From Cohnella laeviribosi DSM 21336 (GTDB taxonomy: Bacteria > Bacillota > Bacilli > Paenibacillales > Paenibacillaceae), in the NCBI RefSeq assembly GCF_000378425.1, contig NZ_KB899810.1, positions 169,688 to 233,687 of the forward strand: 64,000 bases of DNA, written 5' to 3'. How positions within the stretch are numbered: the stretch's first letter is position 1; each line of letters starts with the position of its first letter. Below, piece by piece: positions 21,758 to 33,528 of the stretch. A program made the position numbers and the translations under genes. The notes beneath the pieces were generated by a model. It did not search any database, was not told where the DNA came from, and worked only from the letters and a program-made list of their open reading frames with translations.

Positions 21758-21945
21758 ACATTGCGCCGGGACGGCCTCTCCGCCGCCGAAGAAAGAGCGG
21801 AGGGGCGGCTGCGGCGCTCCTATGTATTCCCCCTCGCCTGCCGGGGTTCGCGCGCCGAGCATCAAAAAACCTCCTCTCCCGCCCTCATCCGTGGTGAGCG
21901 GCGAAAAAGAAGGTCGTTTGTCGCTTCGGTCCCCGTTGATGACCG

Positions 21946-22026
21946 TCAGATTTTCAGCTCCCCAAGCTTGATCAGCTCGACAACCGCCTGCGAACGCCCC
22001 TTTACGTTTAACTTTTGCATCACATT
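21946..22026 (-). pseudogene. gerE: gerE, 3' part (last 24 codons) cut off by an inserted element
   Basis: On the minus strand, codons from the ATG at 22020 read MQKLNVKGRSQAVVELIKLG and end ELKI before TGA. This is the C-terminal end of the GerE/LuxR helix-turn-helix (B. subtilis GerE ends MQKLGVKGRSQAVVELLRMGELEL). The first 50 codons lie at 33528-33379 on the same strand. Joining at the shared AATG gives exactly 74 residues, the length of B. subtilis GerE. So this is not decay but an interrupted gene, probably restored by excision in the mother cell. Upstream of the junction the frame continues into element DNA without a start. Confidence 0.9.
22023..22026 (-). other. Left attachment core (attL) in gerE
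   Basis: Minus strand reads CACGTGACG AATG TGATGCAAAAG. The AATG (or the following GA, also shared) is the likely crossover region. The element-side arm has TTCAAA, which mirrors TTTGAA in the other arm when the circle is closed, giving an inverted repeat centred on the AA of AATG, as expected for a serine-recombinase attP. Confidence 0.65.
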
Positions 22027-22109
22027 CGTCACGTGTTTTGAATTACGCAACTTACGCAACCGATTATCGAACGAATCCGCCGCGGATTCGCCGGTTGGGA
22101 TCGCCGGTT

Positions 22110-23714
22110 TCAGATGTTTTCCCCAAGGCCGAACGTCAGCTCGACCCGCACTTCTCCCGTCTCCGACACCGTGATCCGCTCGATCAGCTGTTTCAGGATC
22201 AGGCTGAATGCGTCAAGCTCCTCCTCGTCGTCGTAATTCAGCTCCAGCAGATCGTCCAGCGCTTCTTGGGCTTCCTCCTCCAGCCTACGCATCCGGTCCC
22301 GGGTCTGGCGCAGTTCCCTTAGATCCGCGAGCCGCTTCTCCAACCGGCCGATTTCCTTCTCGAACTGCCGCTTTTCGAATTCCATCTGCTGCCTGTCGAT
22401 CCGGCCGTCAATCCAGTCTTTATGCAGGGAGAACGCCGCTTCCCGGTACCGTTCGATTTTGGCGCCAAGCTCGGCGGCCTCCTTTTCCTCGTTGGACCCG
22501 TCGTTTTGGAGCAAGTGGCGGCAGCTCTCGAACAAGCTTTCAACCGACGCGCAGGCGGACAGCTTGGCGGAGAGGCTCTCCACCAGCGCCTCCCTGAAAT
22601 CCTCATAGGGCAGCCAATAGGCGTTCCGGCATCCGGCGTCTCCTTGCCGCCTGCGCTTGGAGCAGCACAGATAGCGGTACGCCTTGTCTTGCGTTCGGGA
22701 GCGAACCGGCTTCGTCTTCATGCTCACCAGGGAAGCGCCGCAATGCGCGCAGAAGATCATGCCGGCAAAAAGATTTTTGCGGTTGCGGACGCCGCCGCGC
22801 CGCCCCCCTCCGCGCTTCAGGCGGATGTCCTGCGCCGCTTGAAACAGTTCGGGGGAGACGATCGCTTCATGCGTCGGGCCGACGGCGGAACGTTCCCACG
22901 AGGCTTTGTCGCGCTGCACCAGTTTTTTGCGCCGGTCGTGCAGATCGGTCAGGCTGTGCACTTTGACCGTCTCGTATTTGCCGAAAACGTTGACGCCCGT
23001 ATACGCCTCGTTCTGCAAAATGCGCTGAATCGTGGTAACGCCCCAAACGCCGCCTTTAGGCGAAGGAATGAGCCGTTCGTTCAACGCCTTGGCGATCTTT
23101 TTTTCCCCAAGCTTGTGCGCGGTGTACAGGGTAAAAATTTCGCGGACGATTTCGCTTTCGCGCTCGTCGGGAACGAGCGTCTTTCTCCCGTCTACCGTCG
23201 TTTTTTTATATCCGTACGGCGCGACGCTTCCGGTAAAATTCCCTTTCATCGCCGATTGCCGGATGCCGCGCCGCGAGCTTAGACTGATCATTTCGCTCTG
23301 CTTCTGGTTGACCGCGGAAAAAATTTGAAACTTGAATTCGTCGCGGTCGAGTCCCGAATCGTAGTTTTCGTCAATGGAGATCAGCCGGATGTTCAGGGAA
23401 TCCGCCAGCATCCGTTTTAAGGCCATCGAATCGACCAAATCGCGCGAAAATCTGGACAGCGAGGCGAAAATGACCGCTTGAAAGCGACGCGCTTTGGCGT
23501 CCTCCAGCAGCTTTCGAATCGCCGGACGCTCGATCATGCTGGTGCCGCTGTCCCGGTCTTCGTAGATCCATTCGTCGCAGACTTCCAGTCCGATTTGCCG
23601 CGCTTTTTCCCGGCATATGCCTTCCTGATGCTCCGGGCTGTCTTTCTGGCTTTCTTTGGTCGTGCTGACCCGGACGTAAATGGCGGCAACCGGTTTGACC
23701 CTCTGCTGCAACAA
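22110..23714 (-). CDS. Large serine recombinase (integrase/excisionase of the gerE element)
   Basis: About 534 residues. N-terminal resolvase domain with the nucleophile in AIYVRVST (Ser near residue 17) and the catalytic Arg region SLSRFSRDLVDSMAL near 90. Then the recombinase domain (165-280, with PYGYKK and AYTGVNVFGKYE), a zinc ribbon (CAHCG near 328, paired with CC and C residues near 358-370), a long coiled coil (about 415-500) and an acidic C-terminal part. This is the SpoIVCA/phiC31-type layout. It should join attL and attR and thereby restore gerE. A TTG at 23714 follows GGGGGAGG by 8 bases; neighbouring TTGs are possible. No clear own promoter was found. Confidence 0.92.
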   Translation of the reverse strand: MLQQRVKPVAAIYVRVSTTKESQKDSPEHQEGICREKARQIGLEVCDEWIYEDRDSGTSMIERPAIRKLLEDAKARRFQAVIFASLSRFSRDLVDSMALKRMLADSLNIRLISIDENYDSGLDRDEFKFQIFSAVNQKQSEMISLSSRRGIRQSAMKGNFTGSVAPYGYKKTTVDGRKTLVPDERESEIVREIFTLYTAHKLGEKKIAKALNERLIPSPKGGVWGVTTIQRILQNEAYTGVNVFGKYETVKVHSLTDLHDRRKKLVQRDKASWERSAVGPTHEAIVSPELFQAAQDIRLKRGGGRRGGVRNRKNLFAGMIFCAHCGASLVSMKTKPVRSRTQDKAYRYLCCSKRRRQGDAGCRNAYWLPYEDFREALVESLSAKLSACASVESLFESCRHLLQNDGSNEEKEAAELGAKIERYREAAFSLHKDWIDGRIDRQQMEFEKRQFEKEIGRLEKRLADLRELRQTRDRMRRLEEEAQEALDDLLELNYDDEEELDAFSLILKQLIERITVSETGEVRVELTFGLGENI

Positions 23715-23743
23715 GGGCAACGCCTCCCCCGCTTTCGAGCATG

Positions 23744-23772
23744 AAAAAGGCCGTTTGACGATTCATCAAACG
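23744..23772 (-). terminator. Intrinsic terminator after the 55-residue gene
   Basis: CGTTTGA, seven bases, TCAAACG, followed by a T5 run on the minus strand. It lies between the 55-residue gene and the recombinase. It belongs to a sequence repeated at 31839-31907. Confidence 0.65.
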
Positions 23773-23811
23773 ACCCTTGCCCTTCTTAGGACACGGCTTG
23801 TACGAGTTCGG
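23744..23811. repeat. Direct repeat copy A within the gerE element
   Basis: Terminator plus flanking DNA similar to copy B (31839-31907). Both begin AAAAAGGCCG, contain a TTGAC...TCAAACG hairpin and CCCTT, and end in ACGGCTTGTACGA followed by a TCCGG/TTCGG-like end. Both copies have the same orientation. The metabolic cargo lies between them. Confidence 0.65.
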
Positions 23812-23953
23812 AAATTTTTTTTGCCCGGTCGCTTGGCAGCCGATTTCGCCGGATTCGGATCACGGTCTCCTTCGCCAAACGGTTCACGATCTCGCCAAGG
23901 TCCCTCGCGCCTTCTTGAAAATGAAGCTGGAACGCACGTTTCCGGCTTCCCAC
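23786..23953 (-). CDS. Small basic protein of 55 aa next to the recombinase
   Basis: Reads MGSRKRAFQLHFQEGARDLG and ends KKISELVQAVS. Rich in Arg/Lys and probably all helical, with a strong ribosome site (GGAGGAG 8 bases before GTG at 23953) and its own terminator. I do not recognise the family. Its position directly upstream of a large serine recombinase and its size are like recombination directionality factors (SprB of SPbeta is 58 residues), which make excision possible. That role is a guess. A GTATACTT element upstream could be a SigA or SigE -10. Confidence 0.6.
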   Translation of the reverse strand: MGSRKRAFQLHFQEGARDLGEIVNRLAKETVIRIRRNRLPSDRAKKISELVQAVS

Positions 23954-24049
23954 CGCCGCTTCTCCTCCCAACCCTTTTTTTACAAGTATACATCCGCAGC
24001 GGCTTGACTTATGAAAATGGACCGGGAAATGTTGACCGTCTCGTCCGCC

Positions 24050-25198
24050 TCACCACTCCGCAATCGAACCGTCCGCATGCCGCCAAACCGGATTTCGCCA
24101 CTTGTGGCCGATCTCCGCCGCTTTGCGGACTTTGTCCTCGTCAATCTCGACGCCCAGCCCGGGACCGCTGGGGATATCGACATAACCGTCGCGGTACGTA
24201 AACACGGACGGATCTTTAAGAAAGTCCAGCAGATCGCTGCCCTCATGATAATGGATGCCCAGGCTTTGCTCTTGAATAAACGCGTTGTGCGCCGTGGCAT
24301 CCACCTGCAAGCTTGCCGCGAGCGCAATCGGTCCCAGCGGGCAGTGCGGCGCCAGCGCCACATCGTACGCTTCCGCCATGGCCGCGATCTTCTTGCATTC
24401 GGTGATGCCGCCCGCATGCGACAAATCCGGCTGGACAATATCCACACAGCCGTCGGCCAGCACCCGTTTGAAATCCCAGCGGGTAAACATCCGCTCTCCC
24501 GTGGCGATCGGAATGGAGGTATGGCGGGCCAGCTCTTGGAGATGCTCGTTGTTTTGCGGCAGCACCGGCTCCTCGATAAACATCGGATGAAACGGCTCCA
24601 GCTCCTTGACCAGCACTTTCGCCATCGGCTTATGGACGCGCCCGTGGAAATCCAGCGCGATGCCGAAGCTTTTGCCGACCGCTTGCCGCGCCGTGGCCAC
24701 CCGTTCGACGGCCGCGTCGACTTTGTCGAAGCTGTCGATGTATTGCAGCTCTTCCGTCAGGTTCATCTTCACCGCCGTAAAGCCGTGGCCGGCCGCTTCT
24801 TTAATCGCTTTCGCCACGTCGCTCGGCCGGTCGCCTCCGATCCAGGAATAAACCCGCATCCGGTCCCGGCAAGCGCCGCCCAGCAATTGATGGACCGGGG
24901 CCCGGTAGAACTTGCCCTTAATGTCCCACAGCGCCTGGTCGATGCCGGCAATCGCGCTCATCAGCACCGGCCCGCCCCTGTAGAACGAAGCCCGGTACAT
25001 CAGTTGCCACAAATCTTCGATGCACATCGGATCTTTTCCGATCAAGGCGTCGGCAAATTCGTGCACGGCCGCCCGGACGGTTTCCGCCTTCCCTTCCACG
25101 ATCGGCTCGCCCCATCCGGAAATGCCTTCGTCCGTTTCCACTTTCAGAAACAGCCAGCGCGGCGGGACCACAAACGTTTCAAAACGGGTGATCTTCAT
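24050..25198 (-). CDS. dgoD: D-galactonate dehydratase (enolase superfamily)
   Basis: Dehydrates D-galactonate to 2-keto-3-deoxy-galactonate. 382 residues, the same length as E. coli DgoD, with long stretches I recognise as near-identical: [16 protein letters not shown] at the start, [33 protein letters not shown] (metal ligand Asp and base His, near 183-185), [45 protein letters not shown] and [16 protein letters not shown] (second catalytic His near 285). AGGAGG lies 8-9 bases before the ATG. Next gene after the two-component system on the same strand. No kinase (dgoK) or aldolase (dgoA) accompanies it, so the product must be used by genes elsewhere, or the true substrate is a related sugar acid. 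Confidence 0.9.
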
Positions 25199-25265
25199 CG
25201 GAAATACCTCCTAAAGCGAATGGAAGAATAAAAGAAATACGGCATATACGGTCCGGCCGGATGCG

Positions 25266-26903
25266 TCAACGCTGCTGCCGGTATTGCTGAGGCGTCAGGC
25301 CGTAATGCTTCTTGAACACTTTGATGAAATAGTTCGGGTTTTGATAACCCAATTCCAGGGCGATCTCGTAAATTTTAGCGGCACTGTTTTTCAACAGGGA
25401 GGCAGCCTTCTCCATCTTGACCCGGACGATAAAATCGCTTACATTCTCGCCGGTTTCCGCTTTGTACACTTGCGAAAGATAAACCGGGTGCATGTACAAT
25501 CGGCCGGCCAAATCCTGCAGCGTAATCGCCTCGCCGAGATTTTTAAGGACCTGCTGCCGGATCTTTTCCACGATGGAATACCGCGTATGCGCCAGCTCCT
25601 TCTCCGCGTAATGCCGCAGTTTGCCGAGCGACTCCAGCGCCCAGGCTTGCAATGCGGAAAAGGACCGGCACGGCGCAAGCCCGATCGCATTGGACAGTTC
25701 CGGGCCGATAATCTCCGCCAGCTCTTTACCGTACTTATGCGCGATAAAACAGCAGGCCGAATAGATCGTGAAAAAAGCTTCGATTAAATAATCTTTCGAT
25801 TCGCCGGATTTCGGGCCCAATTCCTCGAAGATCGCCTCATACTTTTCCTCGATGCCCTCCCAATCGCCGACTTCAAACAAATGAACGAGCAGCGGCGGCT
25901 CGTATAACCGTTGCAGCGAACGGGTTTGCGACAAGCCCGGTTCCTCGGACGCGAACGCGATCACGTCGCTCTGCCTGCCGATCTGCTTCCGGAACGCCGA
26001 CAGCGCGCTCTGATAGAGCGGGCTTAACTCTTCGGGAAAAAGCCCCCACTTGCCGATCAGCACCGACACTTTGCCTTGCAAATAATGGTTGACGCTTCGC
26101 TGCAGCTGCGCCGCCAATTGTTCGAACCGGCGCCTCAGCGGTTCCGAAAGCGCCTGTCCGCGCTCCGACGTTTCCGCTTCCTTCGCCCCGACCGCAAACA
26201 CCATAAAACCGTGGACATCCTGGCAGTGCCATAATGGAAAATGGCCGCTAAAAATTTCTTCCGCCATGTTCCCGATCGCGTACTGCAGCAGAGACAGGCT
26301 GTAAAAGTCCTGTTCCGGCATCTCCTTCTCCAGCCGGATCAGCATTAACGCGACCGAATCCCCCGGGGCGATGGGAATGTCGAACATCTTTAGCTTTTCC
26401 GCGAGCAATTGCGGCGAAATCCGTTTTCCTTGCAGCAGATCGTTCAGCAAATCCGCTTTCAGCTTCGGCAGATGCTCCCGCATCGTGCGCAACGCCCGAT
26501 GGTAAGCGTCATACGTTTCGACTTCCGCGCGCAGCTTGTCGACGACGCGGGCCACTTTCGCCAAGATCTCTTCGTCGCTGACCGGCTTGAGCAGATAGTC
26601 GGATACATGATGCTTAATGGCCTGCTGGGCATAGGCGAAATCCGCGTAACCCGTCAGCAGCAAGCATTTGACGTTCTTCCATCTCGCGCCGATTTCCTCG
26701 ATCAGCTCCAGCCCGCTCATGCCGGGCATGCGAATATCCGTAACGACAATATCCACCGGCGCATACGCCAAAATATCCAGCGCTTCCAAACCGGAATGCG
26801 CCTTGTACACCTTGCCGATCCCGATTTCCGCCCAGGGGATCAGCGTTTCCAGACTTTCCACCACACTGGCTTCGTCGTCTACAAGCAGCATATGAAACAA
26901 CAT
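25266..26903 (-). CDS. Response regulator, YesN/AraC type
   Basis: 545 residues. Receiver domain at residues 1-120 with acidic pocket D9-D10 and phosphoacceptor Asp56 (VVTDIRMPGMSG) and Lys near 105 (LLKPVSDEE). A long helical middle region (120-440) is followed by an AraC-type double helix-turn-helix in the last 100 residues (LGEAITLQDLAGRLYMHPVYLSQVYK and ALELGYQNPNYFIKVFKKHYG). ATG at 26903 starts two bases after the stop of the kinase gene. It should activate the importer genes when phosphorylated by the adjacent kinase. Confidence 0.9.
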   Translation of the reverse strand: MLFHMLLVDDEASVVESLETLIPWAEIGIGKVYKAHSGLEALDILAYAPVDIVVTDIRMPGMSGLELIEEIGARWKNVKCLLLTGYADFAYAQQAIKHHVSDYLLKPVSDEEILAKVARVVDKLRAEVETYDAYHRALRTMREHLPKLKADLLNDLLQGKRISPQLLAEKLKMFDIPIAPGDSVALMLIRLEKEMPEQDFYSLSLLQYAIGNMAEEIFSGHFPLWHCQDVHGFMVFAVGAKEAETSERGQALSEPLRRRFEQLAAQLQRSVNHYLQGKVSVLIGKWGLFPEELSPLYQSALSAFRKQIGRQSDVIAFASEEPGLSQTRSLQRLYEPPLLVHLFEVGDWEGIEEKYEAIFEELGPKSGESKDYLIEAFFTIYSACCFIAHKYGKELAEIIGPELSNAIGLAPCRSFSALQAWALESLGKLRHYAEKELAHTRYSIVEKIRQQVLKNLGEAITLQDLAGRLYMHPVYLSQVYKAETGENVSDFIVRVKMEKAASLLKNSAAKIYEIALELGYQNPNYFIKVFKKHYGLTPQQYRQQR

Positions 26904-26905
26904 TC

Positions 26906-28621
26906 TCACCCGCATTCGTCGGATTCCCATTTCATCGTCACGCTCAACCCGCCGCTTTCCGAACGGGCCAGCTGCAGTCCGGAACCGCCCTTGTAACGGT
27001 GCAGCAGGCGCTGATGCACATTCCAAAGGCCGCAGCCCATCTCGTCGTCCATCGGCAGCGCCAATTGCTGCTGCAGCTTGGCCATGGCCTCGTCGGACAT
27101 GCCGCCTCCGTTGTCTTCGACCACAATCCGGTGCTCGCCGCCGGACGACCGGCCGGTTATGCGGATAATGCCGTAACGGGCGCTTCTTTCGACGCCGTGG
27201 ATAACGGCGTTCTCGACAAGAGGCTGAATCGTGAGCCGGGGAATCCGCAGCTTGCGCATCGATTCGGGAATGCCGATTTCAAAATGGAACCGTTCGATCC
27301 GCAAATTTTGAATCACCAGGTAGTTCGTCACCAGCTTGATTTCTTCCTCGATCGTCGCCATTTCGCTTTCGACCCGGGTCGCATACCGGTAATATTGGCC
27401 CAGGTTCAAGGCCATCGCGGCGACGGCTTCGGTTTCGCCCAGGCTGGCCATATTTTTGATGTAAAAAAGACAGTTGTACAAAAAATGCGGATTGATTTGC
27501 GACTGAAGCTGCTTCAGGGTGGCTTCGCGCAGCCGGATTTTTTCTTCGTAAATCGTTTCGATCAATTGCTGGATTTGCTCGGCCATTTCGTTGAACCGCA
27601 AAATCAGATACTCGAACTCGTTGTGCACTTTGTTCTGCAGCCGGATCGAATAGTTGCCCGTCTTCAGCCCCTTGACGCCCCGAATCAACTGCTTGATCGG
27701 CATTTGCACTTGCCAGTACAGCAGCAGCGCGGCCGAAAGGCTCAGCGCAAGCAGCAAAGCCGCCGAACCGTAAAACAAATTGCGGCTTTTCGTTATCGGG
27801 CTCAAAATTTCCTCCAGCGGCTCGTAATCGACCAAATACCAGCCGGGCAAGCTTTTCGACTGCACATAGTTCACGGAGTATTTCTTTTGATGAATTTTGA
27901 CAATCTCGCTCCCGCTTGGCTCCAGCGATTTCCGGTTCAACAGGGAAACCATCTCGCTGATGATCGCCGAATCCGTATCGCCGCTCACAATCGGCTCCGA
28001 CTGCGGATGATAGAAAAACGGGTTCGCCTGATCGGTCCGCCTGAATTCCGCCAGCATGTTTTGGATGTTGTCGGCCAAAAACCGGACTTCGACGAGCAGA
28101 TCCGTCTGCTGCCGGTCCACGTACGTATATCGGGAAAAGTAAGCCTCTTCCCCGCCGCTTTCCGCCGGCACGTAATCCCAGGTTTGGCTTTCCCGCTTCA
28201 TCAGCTGCCGGATATCCCGGTCGGTGATGGAATAATCCGTCGACACGATTTCCTTCGACTCCGGCGAATAGACGGTCAGCTGATTGACCCAGGTGCTCGT
28301 CGCGCTTTGCAAAATGAGCTGTTCTTCAATCTTCGAGCGCTTGCGGATCCGGTCGTACGGCGCGTCCGTTTTCCAGCTTTCCATGTAGTCCCGGATGCCG
28401 GGCGAGCGGCTGGCAATGATCGCAAACTTGGACAGCTGGTCGAGATTGGACTCCATTTGGCTCATAAAAAACGAAAGGCGATTCCACGTGGACGATTCGA
28501 TTCCCGCTTTGACGACGTCGACGCTGACCTGATTGGAATAGCCGTAAAGCGCGAGAATCGGGACGAGCAGCGACGCGATCAGCAACACCATTTTGTGGAA
28601 AATGTTGATTTTGACGGGCAT
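26906..28621 (-). CDS. Sensor histidine kinase, YesM type
   Basis: 571 residues. Membrane segments near 10-30 and 280-305 flank a large extracellular sensor domain; a HAMP domain follows (about 305-360), then the His-kinase box QINPHFLYNCLFYIKNM (His near 378) and an HATPase domain (VENAVIHG near 470, EDNGGGM near 505). This is the LytS/YesM class that works with AraC-type regulators on carbohydrate uptake. The ATG lies 6 bases after the permease stop, so the kinase is cotranscribed with the importer it probably controls. Confidence 0.9.
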   Translation of the reverse strand: MPVKINIFHKMVLLIASLLVPILALYGYSNQVSVDVVKAGIESSTWNRLSFFMSQMESNLDQLSKFAIIASRSPGIRDYMESWKTDAPYDRIRKRSKIEEQLILQSATSTWVNQLTVYSPESKEIVSTDYSITDRDIRQLMKRESQTWDYVPAESGGEEAYFSRYTYVDRQQTDLLVEVRFLADNIQNMLAEFRRTDQANPFFYHPQSEPIVSGDTDSAIISEMVSLLNRKSLEPSGSEIVKIHQKKYSVNYVQSKSLPGWYLVDYEPLEEILSPITKSRNLFYGSAALLLALSLSAALLLYWQVQMPIKQLIRGVKGLKTGNYSIRLQNKVHNEFEYLILRFNEMAEQIQQLIETIYEEKIRLREATLKQLQSQINPHFLYNCLFYIKNMASLGETEAVAAMALNLGQYYRYATRVESEMATIEEEIKLVTNYLVIQNLRIERFHFEIGIPESMRKLRIPRLTIQPLVENAVIHGVERSARYGIIRITGRSSGGEHRIVVEDNGGGMSDEAMAKLQQQLALPMDDEMGCGLWNVHQRLLHRYKGGSGLQLARSESGGLSVTMKWESDECG

Positions 28622-28627
28622 CCGGGA

Positions 28628-29446
28628 TCAGCCTTTGACGGCGCCGGCCGCCAGTCCGTTGATAATGAATTTTTGCGCCGCCAGGGCGATCACCAGCACC
28701 GGAAGCGTAATGATGCACGCCGCCGCCATCAAACCGCCCCAGTTCACTTCGGAATAGGACAGGAAGTTGAAAATCGCGATCGGAAGCGTTTTCGTCTTCT
28801 CGCCGGCCAAAATAATCGAAAACATAAAGTTGTTCCAGGAAAAAATGATCGACATCAAGGAAGCGGTCATCACGCCCGGCCCCGAAATCGGCAGCACGAT
28901 GCGCAGAAACACTTTCATCTTGCCGCAGCCGTCGATCGCGCCCGCTTCTTCGATTTCGTGCGGCAGCGCTTCGAAATACGAAATCATGATCCAGATGACG
29001 AACGGAAGCCCGACCAGCATATGGCTCAGAATCAGCGCGGTATACGTATCGACCAGTCCGAGCGAATTGAAAATGATGAACCACGGAATCAAAAAGGAGA
29101 TGCCGGGGATGATGCGCGCCGCCAGAATGGTCAGCCCCAGGCCGTTTAGGCGGTAACGCGCAATGCCGTAAGCGGCGGGCAAGCCGAGCAGCAGCGAGGC
29201 CAGCGTCGAGCCGATAGCGACGATAAAGCTGTTGATCATGTACTTGAAAAAATGGTACTGGTTGAACACTTCGGCGTAATTTCTTCCTGTCGGGCGGAAC
29301 CAGAAAAAGTTGCCGGGCGACTGAATCTGCACCTGCGTCTTGAACGAGGCCATCACCATCCAGATAAACGGGAACGAAAACACAAACAGCACCAGCCAGG
29401 TCGCCGTATTCGACAACAAACGGGCGAACGCATTCCTTTTCTTCAT
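28628..29446 (-). CDS. Carbohydrate ABC transporter permease (MalG/YesQ type)
   Basis: 272 residues with six predicted membrane segments. The EAA loop that contacts the ATPase is visible (EEAGAIDGCGKMKVFLRIVLPISGPG, near residues 185-210). The ATG overlaps the stop of the upstream permease (ATGA) and has GGAGGTG upstream. No ATPase is encoded in the element; importers of this family in Firmicutes often share one MsmX-like ATPase encoded elsewhere. Confidence 0.92.
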   Translation of the reverse strand: MKKRNAFARLLSNTATWLVLFVFSFPFIWMVMASFKTQVQIQSPGNFFWFRPTGRNYAEVFNQYHFFKYMINSFIVAIGSTLASLLLGLPAAYGIARYRLNGLGLTILAARIIPGISFLIPWFIIFNSLGLVDTYTALILSHMLVGLPFVIWIMISYFEALPHEIEEAGAIDGCGKMKVFLRIVLPISGPGVMTASLMSIIFSWNNFMFSIILAGEKTKTLPIAIFNFLSYSEVNWGGLMAAACIITLPVLVIALAAQKFIINGLAAGAVKG

Positions 29447-30324
29447 GAAGACACCTCCGTGTTGCGGCGGACCACGATCAGCGCGAGCGTCAGCCCCATG
29501 ACCAGCAGGAAAAAGACCACCAGCAGCGAGGACGCGAGTCCAAGCTTGAAATATTGAAAGGCCAGCACGTAACCGTAAATGTTCAGCGTTTCGGAAGCCG
29601 TGCCCGGTCCGCCCTGCGTCGTGGCATAGATAATATCGAACGTCTTGATGACGTCGATCAGCCGGAGCATGACGGCGGTCAAAATGGTCGGGCGCAGCAG
29701 GGGAAGCGTAATGTACCACAATTTTTGCCGGCGGCTCGCGCCGTCGACATCCGCCGATTCGTACGGCTCTTGCGGAAGCGTCGTCAAGCCGGCCATGACG
29801 ATGAGGCAGACCATCGGCGTCCATTGCCAGATGTCGATGACCATGAGCGACGGAATCACTTGGCCGATGCTGCCGAGCCAATGGAGCGGCTTCAATCCGA
29901 TCGCCTGCAGCAACGCGTTGAAAATGCCGTTGGTCGGCTCGTAAATGAGCACCCACACCAATCCCATGGCGACAGGCGTGGCGACCATCGGCAGCAGGAA
30001 GATCGTCTTGGCGAGCCCCCTCCCGCGGAATTCGCGGTGCAGGAGCAAAGCGATGGCAACGCCCAGCACGGTTTCCGCCGCCAACGCGCCGAAGGAAAAA
30101 TAAGCGGTTGCCCCTAATGCATGCCAGAAGCGGCCGTCTTTAAACAGCGCAATGTAGTTGTCCAGGCCGACCCACTTCGGCGGCGAGGCGGCCGACATGC
30201 TCCATTCGAAGAAACTTAACCGCAAGGTATACGCGATCGGAAACGCCATCATCACGAGCACAAACAATAGAGCCGGCAGCGTCACGATCCATTTGAACCT
30301 TTTTTCCATCCACGAAGCCAACAT
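29443..30324 (-). CDS. Carbohydrate ABC transporter permease (MalF/YesP type)
   Basis: 293 residues, six membrane segments, with the EAA-like loop ESADVDGASRRQKLWYITLPLL near residue 200. Start taken at ATG 30324 because GAGGG lies 6 bases upstream; an in-frame TTG eight codons earlier is the alternative. It lies between the binding-protein gene and the MalG-type permease and overlaps the latter by four bases. Confidence 0.9.
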   Translation of the reverse strand: MLASWMEKRFKWIVTLPALLFVLVMMAFPIAYTLRLSFFEWSMSAASPPKWVGLDNYIALFKDGRFWHALGATAYFSFGALAAETVLGVAIALLLHREFRGRGLAKTIFLLPMVATPVAMGLVWVLIYEPTNGIFNALLQAIGLKPLHWLGSIGQVIPSLMVIDIWQWTPMVCLIVMAGLTTLPQEPYESADVDGASRRQKLWYITLPLLRPTILTAVMLRLIDVIKTFDIIYATTQGGPGTASETLNIYGYVLAFQYFKLGLASSLLVVFFLLVMGLTLALIVVRRNTEVSS

Positions 30325-30387
30325 CGCATTCCCTCTTTCCGTGTTCAAATCGGGAAGGGGGCTTGTTCAGCCCCCCCTTGCGCATCC

Positions 30388-31710
30388 TTATTTTTCGCCG
30401 TCAATGAGAGCTTGGAACGCTTGATTCGCCTTATCCGGCGCTGCCTGAACGTCTTCTCCCAAAATCGCCTGGATGACGATTTCGCCGATGATGTCGCGCG
30501 CCTCGCCGACATTGACGACAAGCGGACGGTCGTGACCGACGCCGACCTTCGACGATTCCCGGATGACTTCCACCAGTTCGGCCGGGAAGCCCTTGACGCC
30601 CTCGGGATCGTTCCATACCGAGTTGCGCACGCCGGGATTTCCGCCCTGCTGCGTCTTCAGCATGACTTCTTTGCCGGTCGCCCATTTGATAAACGCCCAG
30701 ACGGCGTCCTTGTTGTCCGATTGCGCATTCATGCCAAGCGCCCATGAGGTGATGCTGTAAGGCTTGGCGCCGGCGCTTCCGGCCGGGAAGCTGGCGAAGC
30801 CGACGTTTTCCGCAACGGTCGACTTTTCCGGATCGACCGCGTTTTTGTAAATCGCGCTGGCATCGGTGTAGAACGCGGCTTTCCCTTGCGCGAATACGCC
30901 CATCGCTTGCGGCCAGGAGAAGTTCAGCACGCCGGGAGGACCGTAGTCTTTCAGCCACCGGCCGTAGCGCGAGAAGCCTTTGACGGCTTCGGGCGTGTTC
31001 ACCGTCGCCTTGTCGCCTTGCATAAAGTCGCCGCCTTCCGAGAAGACGAAGGACGAAACCTGCGTAACCAGCACGGCCGTCTGGCCTCTGGCGACAAAGC
31101 CGTATACGCCGTTGTCCGGATCGTGCACTTTTTGGATCGCGGCTTCAAGCTCGTCCAGCGTTTTCGGAACTTGCAAGTTCGCCTTCTCCAGCAGGTCTTT
31201 GCGGTAGTACAGCACTTCCTGTTCCGAAATAATCGGGATCGACAGCAGCTTGCCGTCCACCGTCGTCGTGTCCAGGGCGGATTTGGAGAAGTCTTCGAAA
31301 TCGATCTCCGCCTTGTCCTTCTCCACGTAACCGTCCAACGGCTCGTACCACCCGTTCTTGTAAAACTGCCTGCCTTCTTGCAGCGGACGCGTCATGAACA
31401 CATCCGGATCGGACGCTTTGGTCGTCAGTTGGACCGAAAGCTTCTGCGACAGCTGGTCCTCGGCGAAGCCCTGGATTTCCACTTTCAATCCCGTCTGGGC
31501 TTCAAACTCCGGCAACAGTTCCTTAATGGTTTCGGCCCAGGGATGGTTGGCCACATAGAACGTAATCTTTTTCCCTTTGAAAGGCTGGGCGGCTCCTTCG
31601 CTCGAAGACGGACTTGCGCCGCTGCCGCCGCCGCTGCCGCATCCGGCCGTAAGCGCAACCGCAAGCAGTGCGGACAAACATGAGCCAAGCCGCTTATTGA
31701 TCCTTTTCAT
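30388..31710 (-). CDS. Sugar-binding lipoprotein of an ABC importer
   Basis: 440 residues. Lipoprotein signal peptide: basic MKRINKR, hydrophobic core, lipobox LTAGC with Cys near residue 24, then a Gly/Ser linker. The mature part is a family-1 extracellular solute-binding protein (ITFYVANHPWAETIKELLPEFE, SIPIISEQEVLYYRKDLLEKA, INSWALG-like SITSWALGMNAQ). First gene of the importer operon; GAGGGGG before the ATG. Substrate unknown; together with dgoD and a YesMN pair, a galactoside, oligosaccharide or sugar acid is likely. Confidence 0.92.
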   Translation of the reverse strand: MKRINKRLGSCLSALLAVALTAGCGSGGGSGASPSSSEGAAQPFKGKKITFYVANHPWAETIKELLPEFEAQTGLKVEIQGFAEDQLSQKLSVQLTTKASDPDVFMTRPLQEGRQFYKNGWYEPLDGYVEKDKAEIDFEDFSKSALDTTTVDGKLLSIPIISEQEVLYYRKDLLEKANLQVPKTLDELEAAIQKVHDPDNGVYGFVARGQTAVLVTQVSSFVFSEGGDFMQGDKATVNTPEAVKGFSRYGRWLKDYGPPGVLNFSWPQAMGVFAQGKAAFYTDASAIYKNAVDPEKSTVAENVGFASFPAGSAGAKPYSITSWALGMNAQSDNKDAVWAFIKWATGKEVMLKTQQGGNPGVRNSVWNDPEGVKGFPAELVEVIRESSKVGVGHDRPLVVNVGEARDIIGEIVIQAILGEDVQAAPDKANQAFQALIDGEK

Positions 31711-31838
31711 GCTGCATCCCCCTCAAATCGTTTTTCATAGAAAAATATACCTTTCAATTCCCTGGATCATATAGAGAAAAATTTTAAGATGGATAGAACG
31801 TTTTTAATCTGTTTGCGCCCGTCCGGCCGCGAAAGACC

Positions 31839-31872
31839 AAAAAGGCCGCTTGACCCTTTCGGTCAAACGGCC
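31839..31872 (-). terminator. Intrinsic terminator after the PilZ gene
   Basis: GGCCGCTTGACC and GGTCAAACGGCC form a 12-bp stem (one mismatch) around CTTTC, followed by T5 on the minus strand, 55 bases after the PilZ stop. Confidence 0.75.
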
Positions 31873-31907
31873 CTTCTTGCGAAATGAAACGGCTTGTACG
31901 AATCCGG
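31839..31907. repeat. Direct repeat copy B within the gerE element
   Basis: Partner of copy A at 23744-23811; shares the terminator hairpin and the downstream ACGGCTTGTACGA. Recombination between the copies would remove 8.1 kb with dgoD, the two-component system, the importer and the 55-residue gene. Confidence 0.65.
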
Positions 31908-31926
31908 TATGGGGTGTCCGCCCGCG

Positions 31927-32457
31927 TCATTCCGTCATTTTCTTTTTCTCGATCTCTATTTTTTGCATCGTTTGGACCAGGCGCTGCTGCTCTTTGGGAT
32001 CGACTTCGATGAAGTCGATTCCGTACATGATCTCTTTCATGGTTTCCTCTTTTCGCACGATCTTTCCTTTAAAAGAGAACTCCTCGCCATGAAGCGCGAA
32101 ATGCAGCTGCACAAAAATCCGCTTGCGAACGGGCAAATCGAATTCGCAGCTCAATTTCACCCCCGTGCGGCTGATGTTCTCGATTTTCCCTTCTCCTTTT
32201 CGATTGGTTAACGGCTCCAGCAGCGGATCTCCGAAACCGATAAACGCAAACAGGCATTGTTGATCGGGAAGCTGGATCCGGTACCCGCGCCTTCTTTCCA
32301 TCTCCGCCAATTTGGCCTGCAAACCGCTAATCGACTCTTTTAATCCGTTGATCTGGTCGTCTTTTTTTCTTAATTGCTTTATATGGAACCAGTACCCGAA
32401 CAAAAAGACCACCAGCAGCAGCAAAAACATAGACAGAATCATGATCGCCGTTTTCAT
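31927..32457 (-). CDS. Membrane-anchored PilZ-domain protein
   Basis: 176 residues: N-terminal membrane anchor (about 4-24), short coiled coil (30-55), then a PilZ domain. The c-di-GMP motifs RRRGYR (near 56-61) and NISRTG (near 92-97) match the RxxxR and (D/N)xSxxG pattern, so it should bind c-di-GMP. Role within the element unknown. Promoter TCGAAA-N18-TATAAT upstream, with a dyad operator over the start site, so the divergent XRE protein probably represses it. DNA is more AT-rich than the cargo genes. Confidence 0.82.
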   Translation of the reverse strand: MKTAIMILSMFLLLLVVFLFGYWFHIKQLRKKDDQINGLKESISGLQAKLAEMERRRGYRIQLPDQQCLFAFIGFGDPLLEPLTNRKGEGKIENISRTGVKLSCEFDLPVRKRIFVQLHFALHGEEFSFKGKIVRKEETMKEIMYGIDFIEVDPKEQQRLVQTMQKIEIEKKKMTE

Positions 32458-32546
32458 CTCGCAAGCTTACCCTTTCCTGACATGGTGAAAACCCTCCATC
32501 TTTCACTGAAACGAACCAACCATCCGGTTTGATAGTCCTAAAGACA

Positions 32547-32562
32547 TAGTCTATTGAGACTA
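32547..32562. promoter_or_regulatory. Dyad operator 1 (XRE site)
   Basis: Perfect inverted repeat TAGTCT-ATTG-AGACTA directly after the -10 of the PilZ promoter, covering its start site. A degenerate copy (TAGTCCTAAAGACATA) adjoins it at 32533-32548. Confidence 0.6.
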
Positions 32563-32616
32563 ATTATACGACATTCTTTTTATTTTTTCGACTTTTTTTG
32601 CATAAAAAATATTTAT

Positions 32617-32636
32617 AGACTTTAAATCTCAAGTCT
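32617..32636. promoter_or_regulatory. Dyad operator 2 (XRE site)
   Basis: Inverted repeat AGACTT, 8 bases, AAGTCT, overlapping the proposed -10 of the XRE gene. Shares the AGAC/GTCT half-site with operator 1, suggesting autorepression by the same protein. Confidence 0.55.
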
Positions 32637-32702
32637 GAATATCTTCCGCCTCTTGCGTACAGTTTAAAAGCTAAAGGTACAGTTACCTAGGAGGTGGTAA
32701 TA

Positions 32703-33041
32703 ATGAGTAATTTGCCAAAGCTTATCGGGGAACGGATTCGAAATTACCGGAAAGAAAAAGGGTGGAGCCAAGAGGAATTAGCCCACATCGCCAATCTCCA
32801 CGCCACCTATATCGGGCAGTTGGAGCGCGGAGAGAAGAATGCCACTTTGGAAAGCGTGGAAAAAGTGGCGAATGCGTTGGAGATCCCGTTGGAAAACCTT
32901 TTTCGGTCGATCCACTCCAACCCGGATTCCCAAGAGTATACGTTGACCCGGATCGTTACCTTTTTACAAACCAAAAGCGTCGAAGATCAAAAAACGTTCC
33001 TCAAGCTGCTGGAATTATTGTCGGATTGGAAATCCAAATAA
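32703..33041 (+). CDS. XRE-family repressor (SinR/Xre-like)
   Basis: 112 residues. Helix-turn-helix XRE domain at about 6-62 (LIGERIRNYRKEKGWSQEEL, then HATYIGQLERGEKNATLESVEKVANAL), followed by a short helical C-terminal segment that may mediate oligomerisation. ATG at 32703 has AGGAGG 8 bases before it. Only plus-strand gene of the element. It probably regulates itself and the PilZ gene through the dyads in the shared gap; whether it also controls excision is unknown. Confidence 0.88.
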   Translation: MSNLPKLIGERIRNYRKEKGWSQEELAHIANLHATYIGQLERGEKNATLESVEKVANALEIPLENLFRSIHSNPDSQEYTLTRIVTFLQTKSVEDQKTFLKLLELLSDWKSK

Positions 33042-33072
33042 CGAACGTTCGGTTAGCAGTTAGAGGCGGAAG

Positions 33073-33345
33073 CTATACTCCACCTCCCCTGTGATCGCAA
33101 ATGGCCTTTTCAAGTTCTCGATTCTTTTCAGCCGCATCTTGTCCGTCGTATCGTCTTTCCCGTACATGCTCCAATCGCCGCGCAACGATTTCTTGATCGG
33201 AAGTTTCCAAATCGTCTGACGAATGCCTCGCCAAATCTAATATCTTTAGAGTACGGCCGTTTTTGTTTTCTTGCGAAAACCCGGTATCCCCGCAAACGAT
33301 GCCCCAGAAAGCCTTGCGGCTTCTTGGAGGCATCCCCTTCAACAT
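33073..33345 (-). CDS. Right-end protein of the element (90 aa), read in frame with gerE 5' part
   Basis: Reads MLKGMPPRSRKAFWGIVCGD at its start and ends EKAICDHRGGGV; charged and probably helical in its C-terminal half. Unrecognised. The frame is continuous with the gerE 5' part, so before excision a 151-residue chimera could be made (50 GerE residues, then TGFEIHKGSYG and this segment). A separate start at 33345 has AAAGGG about 9 bases upstream. It could be a real small gene or simply an open junction frame. Confidence 0.45.
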   Translation of the reverse strand: MLKGMPPRSRKAFWGIVCGDTGFSQENKNGRTLKILDLARHSSDDLETSDQEIVARRLEHVRERRYDGQDAAEKNRELEKAICDHRGGGV

Positions 33346-33378
33346 TCCGTACGACCCTTTATGGATTTCAAACCCCGT

Positions 33379-33528
33379 CGCATTGGAAATGTGGTTGCGA
33401 ACGGTTTTCTCACTGATAAACAATTGCTGGGCAATATCGCGAGTTGTTTTGTCCTGCACTAACAGTTCAAAAACTTCGCGTTCCCGATTGGTGAGAAGGA
33501 ATTTGTTTTTATGGTCGCTGCCTGTCAA
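33379..33528 (-). pseudogene. gerE: gerE, 5' part (first 50 codons)
   Basis: TTG start, AAGGAGG about 11 bases upstream, then MTGSDHKNKFLLTNREREVF continuing ELLVQDKTTRDIAQQLFISE and KTVRNHISNA. This is nearly the B. subtilis GerE N-terminus (LLTKREREVFELLVQDKTT...). The helix-turn-helix is cut inside its recognition helix by element DNA (next codons read TGFEIHKG). With the 24 codons at 22020-21946 the gene has 74 codons. GerE works in the mother cell late in sporulation, as a DNA-binding switch within the SigK regulon. A SigK-type promoter lies upstream. An in-frame TGA just before the TTG rules out a longer protein. Confidence 0.92.
33381..33384 (-). other. Right attachment core (attR) in gerE
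   Basis: Minus strand reads CATTTCC AATG CGACGGGG. Shares AATG, and GA one base further, with the left junction. The positions differ by exactly 11,358 bases. Confidence 0.65.

Follow-up and report, generated by a model that had tools for sequence, protein, structure and literature searches.

A non-phage element splits gerE at codon 49 in Cohnella laeviribosi and is probably excised in the sporulating mother cell

Introduction

How does a Cohnella genome come to carry gerE in two halves more than 11 kb apart, and could the gene still be made whole when it is needed? The question is raised by Cohnella laeviribosi DSM 21336, in a window of 64,000 nucleotides (the whole stretch of DNA analysed here; assembly GCF_000378425.1, contig NZ_KB899810.1, positions 169,688 to 233,687 of the forward strand). 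An earlier note on this window had described a gerE gene interrupted by a recombinase-bearing element, proposed that the element is excised in sporulation, and pointed to a host from the Paenibacillaceae, to which Cohnella indeed belongs. Our findings place a non-phage element in codon 49 of gerE and suggest that it is probably removed exactly in the sporulating mother cell, which would restore a gene of 74 codons.

Interruption of gerE as such is already known, and the metabolic cargo and the wider range of hosts described below are what goes beyond the findings in print. A literature search that left subscription journals mostly outside found neither a gerE element in Cohnella nor a family-wide survey, and the word gerE is absent from the main text of an atlas of large serine recombinases (PMC10083194). 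In the literature found, gene rearrangement in the mother cell has so far been described from a handful of cases. A single recombinase clade that marks split gerE genes makes the integration of mobile elements into a developmental programme testable by comparison, with unoccupied sites, cargo-free switches, phages and metabolic genes all found at one codon.

Results and Discussion

The two halves of gerE and their join

Both halves of gerE were found on the minus strand at the positions given in the earlier note (Table 1), and the four bases AATG are indeed common to the two junctions (33384-33381 and 22026-22023), with a spacing of 11,358 bp. Joining the halves at the common AA gives an in-frame gerE of 74 codons, as had been claimed. 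The division of the gene into 50 and 24 codons has to be corrected to 49 and 25: the GCG (Ala) counted earlier as codon 50 is element sequence, and the joined gene has GTG (Val) as its codon 50, taken from the 3' side as in intact relatives. An AAGGAGG motif sits directly upstream of the TTG start, and the joined protein differs from the commonest intact Cohnella form (15 of 31 uninterrupted genes) by two residues near its start. While gerE is split, the 5' half continues into the element as an open reading frame (ORF) of 151 amino acids (aa), in which the Pfam domain GerE (PF00196), matched only from profile position 3 to 40 of 57, lacks its last third. For the GerE of Bacillus cereus, the corresponding 5' fragment has been described as inactive (PMC5595907).

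The earlier note had named an intact second gerE as an observation that would speak against its reading. None was found in this draft of 102 contigs, the next best match reaching 36.5 bits against 97.1. An 89-aa ORF with a GerE domain on contig 25 was considered as a second gerE and rejected as another LuxR-type protein. The genome also has spo0A and one uninterrupted sigK. With a draft in so many pieces, the split could in principle reflect unrelated contigs joined by mistake, but the two halves lie within one 234-kb contig, and nine single-contig genomes of the family show the same arrangement, with split gerE and recombinase 2-61 kb apart, so that an assembly error is hardly credible.

Distribution of the break

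Among the 37 Cohnella genomes, all of which gave a gerE 5' half, the gene is uninterrupted in 31 (in one, G007, with its last few residues altered) and broken at the same codon in six. Those six, and only those, carry a recombinase 48-50% identical to the one described here (or this one itself), and eight of the 31 uninterrupted genomes carry recombinases only 29-32% identical. With scoring limited to the top three candidates in each genome, the recombinase (E<=1e-90) was present in 40 of 394 Paenibacillaceae genomes, about one in ten. The 5' half was found in 39 of these 40, on the contig of the recombinase in 35, and is broken after HIS[N/K] in 39 of 39; the fortieth carrier (G286) shows only the 3' half, adjoining the recombinase. 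Of 398 genomes sampled evenly across the Bacilli, 18 carry the recombinase (E<=1e-80), and 13 of these are not Paenibacillaceae. Every one of the 13 has its 5' half broken at that codon, and the 3' half was seen in 12, the exception being G558, where it was not seen in the 39 kb around the recombinase. The total is thus 53 carriers, 52 with the 5' half broken at the same codon and the 53rd with a 3' half only, and no intact gerE was met in any of them. Judged from this distribution, the split is not a product of chance: the same break recurs in every one of the 52 carriers in which a 5' half was found. The survey counted genomes with this recombinase clade, and genes split by other recombinases stand outside the count.

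The named loci span Paenibacillus, Cohnella, Aneurinibacillus, Fontibacillus, Metabacillus, Mesobacillus, Neobacillus and others. A gerE half lies within 10 kb of the recombinase in 36 of the 38; the remaining two, L107 (genome G202) and L110 (G068), stop at contig edges, and the gerE 5' halves of both genomes are split. At L099 the half consists of the first codons only, at a contig end. A sequence pattern for the intact junction, matched in 354 of the 394 family genomes, was rejected as a census of intact gerE because several right-hand attachment sites (attR) read like HISNVMQK (for example in G025 and G032), and the carriers were therefore read one by one. Plasmids gave one weak match as carriers, at 26% identity, and within the sequence read a gerE half was present in 7 of 22 IMG/VR loci.

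The survey also returned some unusual genomes. In genus g17, which lacks this recombinase, the standard junction pattern was matched in none of 16 genomes. G158 (L218) has a gerE with an altered C-terminus and G285 gave no 5' half, both being without the standard junction and this recombinase. In G133 (L223) the 5' half of gerE is present a second time elsewhere in the chromosome, in a stop-containing form at C1:6819-6947.

Attachment sites and crossover

Both junctions could be read in 34 of the 40 family carriers; G286 was left out, as were G068, G122, G161, G202 and G291, whose 3' half was unfetched or off the contig. The AA is common to the left-hand site (attL) and attR in all 34. In the Cohnella element the arms form an inverted repeat about this AA at 13 of 22 positions; for 33 of the elements the figure is 10-20 of 22, and for G031 it is 5 of 22. 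Mean arm identity is 0.686 over 18 positions and falls to 0.15-0.35 when the centre is slid by 1-4. By eye, the element arms resemble TTCAAAACACAT....AA....ATGTGTTTTGAA. The exchange was placed within the AA because in G026 (L043, Cohnella sp. GbtcB17) the host and element sequences differ on both of its flanks. The predicted cleavage of gin, the gerE element of B. cereus ATCC10987, is at the 3'-terminal AA of CATCTCAAA (nucleotides 138-146 of gerE; PMC5595907), and by position this is the same codon-49 dinucleotide as here. As integrases, the recombinases with their sites are diverse but share one conserved target.

Two of these elements deserve separate mention. G026 has two tandem copies of 2,866 bp in gerE, which show no difference in the 2,800 positions compared and flank a complete attP-like site, and in G031 (L042, L075) the recombinase is inverted beside the gerE 5' half.

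The recombinase and a candidate directionality factor

The large serine recombinase that had been noticed beside one end was recovered with both Pfam and PHROG profiles, and it is the single recombinase among the ORFs scanned. Its stop codon lies 83 bases from the attR dinucleotide and its frame is uninterrupted, as it is in 36 of the 38 named loci; in the family matches it is stop-free in 41 of 41. For the 28 of 58 listed loci that could be extracted by motif, the ratio of non-synonymous to synonymous substitution rates (dN/dS) was 0.04-0.11 in 17 pairs (dS below 1.5), seven of them distinct. The 34 gerE 3' halves comprise 33 DNA forms that encode only seven proteins; in pairwise comparison, 6170 of their codon differences are synonymous and 418 non-synonymous.

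Directly 5' of the recombinase lies an ORF of 50-70 aa, which in alignment has a basic start, a short hydrophobic strand and a helix with LA/LV. A profile built from eight seeds detects this ORF in 42 of 52 distinct upstream regions, which were drawn from 55 of 56 loci, or in 34 of 44 without the seeds, and reverse-strand controls gave nothing at E<1e-3 (best 0.046). Neither PHROG nor, above cut-off, Pfam assigns it to a family. We propose this small ORF as a candidate recombination directionality factor (RDF), because it is placed like Skr and because SprB with SprA provides a precedent. Skr, the RDF of the Bacillus subtilis skin element, has 64 aa and overlaps the 5' end of spoIVCA (PMC6957869), and SprB (58 aa) together with SprA is sufficient for excision of SPbeta (PMC4191935). 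At L089 and L091 (Metabacillus and Mesobacillus) an ORF of about 160 aa resembling a recombinase catalytic domain replaces the small ORF.

Probable excision in sporulation

With the elements that intervene in sporulation genes (skin, SPbeta, vfbin, gin), the Cohnella element shares both a position in a sporulation gene from which exact removal would restore the frame and a site-specific recombinase of its own. It resembles gin, which is excised from gerE in sporulation and which, in its published description, is also non-phage, with a serine recombinase, a predicted crossover at the codon-49 AA, an inverted repeat and a rejoined GerE of 74 aa (PMC5595907). However, gin measures 28.6 kb and has three recombinases, including the girAB pair, with girX away from girC and with restriction-modification genes (PMC5595907), whereas the Cohnella element has one recombinase, immediately preceded by the small ORF, and carries a sugar-uptake operon. 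Skin likewise has a serine recombinase (SpoIVCA) with its RDF at the 5' side and a sporulation gene to rejoin (PMC6957869), but it is prophage-derived and its target is sigK, which is uninterrupted here. SPbeta, excised from spsM in sporulation, offers the pairing of a large serine recombinase with a small protein (PMC4191935); it differs in being an active phage with another target, and the small ORF has no detectable similarity to the solved chains (structures 9dxd and 9dxh).

One reason for favouring excision in sporulation is gin, for which an identical crossover has been predicted (PMC5595907). The others are the inverted repeat about the AA, the constraint on the recombinase and on the gerE 3' half, and the placement of the small ORF like that of skr. 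The timing itself we infer from gin and skin. The layout of the locus supports the following hypothesis: the recombinase would have inserted the element by exchange between attP and attB at the AA, and the 55-aa protein would act as its directionality factor. If this protein, or both proteins, were made in the mother cell, it could switch the recombinase to exchange between attL and attR, which would free a circle of 11.4 kb and allow functional GerE to be made late, while the forespore would retain the element and transmit it onward.

Several observations weigh against this hypothesis. The symmetry of the Cohnella element's own arms is modest (13 of 22), and the attR arm of G031 has none to speak of (5 of 22); because it departs from the usual symmetry, excision is doubtful there and that element may be locked in. 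A homologue of the small ORF went undetected in 10 of the 52 upstream regions. The small ORF shows no sequence match to a solved RDF in the PDB, the fusion of an integrase with YotN (SprB) included, and Foldseek returned 0 matches for its model, which is of low confidence (mean predicted local distance difference test score, pLDDT, 69.6). Conservation of the 3' half may be largely older than the insertion. Scans of 51 upstream regions with consensus motifs gave no clear mother-cell promoter (sigma-E p=0.04, sigma-K p=0.14, sigma-A p=0.02); a sigma-70 scan of 21900-24100 found none either, which says little because only 0.7 would be expected by chance. Finally, the recombinase of Paenibacillus lemnae (L111) is truncated, and the match in P. 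cisolokensis (L114) runs through several frames, each beside a gerE that is still split. At these two loci gerE may have been lost or be rejoined in trans, or the sequences may contain errors.

Part of this evidence would suit a dead insertion, with gerE permanently lost in this strain: the modest attP symmetry, and the damaged relatives (G031 in its attR, L111 and L114 in their recombinases). Against such a loss, no interruption is seen here in the recombinase frame, at either AA site or in either gerE half, and the joined protein remains within two residues of the commonest Cohnella GerE, so we consider it very improbable.

A different question is whether the element is an ordinary integrative element, or a relative of a prophage, that uses gerE as its attachment site and leaves rarely or on damage and not in sporulation, the host sporulating without full GerE function. 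The recombinase is 46% identical over 98% of its length to those of the P. larvae phages Lily, Xenia and kin, which are free phages, and for which the part of PMC12453123 consulted reports no excision in sporulation. That source describes Xeni_IDv2, closest to phage Xenia, as inserting in P. larvae gerE on infection, with a nine-base repeat (PMC12453123); assuming that Xeni_IDv2 has a Xenia-type integrase, the 46% identity ties the clade to integration in gerE. A prophage in gerE of B. glycinifermentans is also mentioned (PMC5595907). The promoter scans are compatible with an ordinary element too, as is the second recombinase group found in elements of 36-63 kb, two of them shown to have phage genes. 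Yet an uninterrupted recombinase in nearly empty elements of 2.6-3.2 kb is hard to explain unless excision is needed, although the 3.3-kb L114 element has lost its own, and the B. cereus counterpart is sporulation-specific and not induced by mitomycin C (PMC5595907). An ordinary element therefore seems unlikely to us, and exact excision in the sporulating mother cell is preferred.

Element types and cargo

The 32 family elements that could be sized between their AA sites range from 2.6 to 62.8 kb, and the element of Paenibacillus terrigena measures 2.6 kb. A tree of 63 recombinases (the motif missed 18 of 81 loci) was left unrooted, because the intended outgroup was among the loci missed. One group contains all 11 loci in which a motif marked an upstream ORF of the phage late-regulator type, and it also holds the recombinases of all twelve elements of at least 36 kb together with the small G312, G026 and G320. 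Of its members, G013 has a tail tape measure protein, and G031 has phage replication and RecT genes. The recombinase of the Cohnella element stands beside that of P. ginsengihumi, away from the phage-neighbour group, in a group whose sized members measure 2.6-33 kb and which includes C. terricola (G032), with a DRT2-type reverse transcriptase and a type I restriction system.

The non-phage nature of the cargo, also put forward in the earlier note, is upheld. No phage structural or replication gene was found among nine ORFs searched against Pfam and four (small ORF, recombinase, XRE and PilZ) against PHROGs, unlike in the gerE-inserted prophages G013 and G031; the only good PHROG matches were the recombinase and a generic regulator. 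Read from its 5' side, the element has an unassigned stretch ahead of the XRE and PilZ genes. Six cargo genes form an operon in the order solute-binding protein, two permeases, histidine kinase, AraC-type regulator and mandelate-racemase-type enzyme, and from the protein families our guess is that its substrate is a sugar. Relatives of the solute-binding protein (E<=1e-80) occur in 14 of 36 other Cohnella genomes. Among five such loci that were fetched, none of them the gerE locus, the six-gene order is whole in L232, L233 and L236, and L234 and L235 have five genes, without the enzyme. Because the operon occurs away from gerE in other Cohnella, the cargo looks like a captured catabolic operon.

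Table 1. Features of the split gerE locus and its intervening element, in window positions.
Feature	Positions	Strand	Basis or remark
gerE 5' half, codons 1-49	33382..33528	minus	TTG start at 33528
gerE 3' half, codons 50-74 and stop	21946..22023	minus	
gerE-intervening element, 11,358 bp from one AA crossover dinucleotide to the other	22027..33384	minus	
attL: gerE arm, AA (33384-33383), element arm	33360..33407	minus	
attR: element arm, AA (22026-22025), gerE arm	22003..22050	minus	
Large serine recombinase, 536 aa	22110..23720	minus	Resolvase, Recombinase, zinc ribbon; PHROG integrase
55-aa ORF, candidate RDF	23786..23953	minus	GTG start, GGGAGGAG upstream
Enolase-superfamily enzyme (mandelate racemase / muconate lactonizing type)	24050..25198	minus	Pfam
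AraC-type response regulator (start uncertain)	25266..26978	minus	Pfam
Sensor histidine kinase (His_kinase)	26906..28621	minus	Pfam
ABC-type permease 2	28628..29443	minus	Pfam
ABC-type permease 1	29443..30348	minus	Pfam
Extracellular solute-binding protein	30388..31710	minus	Pfam
PilZ-domain protein	31927..32457	minus	Pfam
XRE-type helix-turn-helix regulator	32694..33041	plus	Pfam

Cargo at this codon is exchangeable: a sugar-uptake operon here and, in other Cohnella, a prophage, a defence island or almost no cargo. We would give an even chance to a broader scenario, in which the recombinase and the small protein form an ancient switch for codon 49 of gerE across the Bacilli. Prophages, defence islands and a sugar operon would plug into it, leave the mother cell at each sporulation and persist in the spore, and the bare switch of 2.6-3 kb would be kept where the cargo was lost, the host needing it for GerE.

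Other arrangements were seen at gerE. At four loci, L220 (G119), L221 (G147), L222 (G071) and L046 (G008), gerE is intact and an additional 3' half lies 1-3 kb downstream of it, separated from it by cargo, which at L222 includes an AAA-ATPase fragment matching PADLOC PDC-M62A. Their genomes are outside the carriers of this recombinase, and the loci are perhaps gene-preserving cassettes mobilised in trans. The intact-junction pattern has two or more matches in thirteen more genomes. An ORF with LFDTGCAATVFDTD and similar sequences, which we take to be retropepsin-like, recurs beside or inside gerE elements (L046, L077, L221 and L222). At L213 (G159) and L094 (G354), gerE is split and has two 3' halves in succession, spaced 1.0-1.6 kb, which looks like the accretion of two elements or cassettes.

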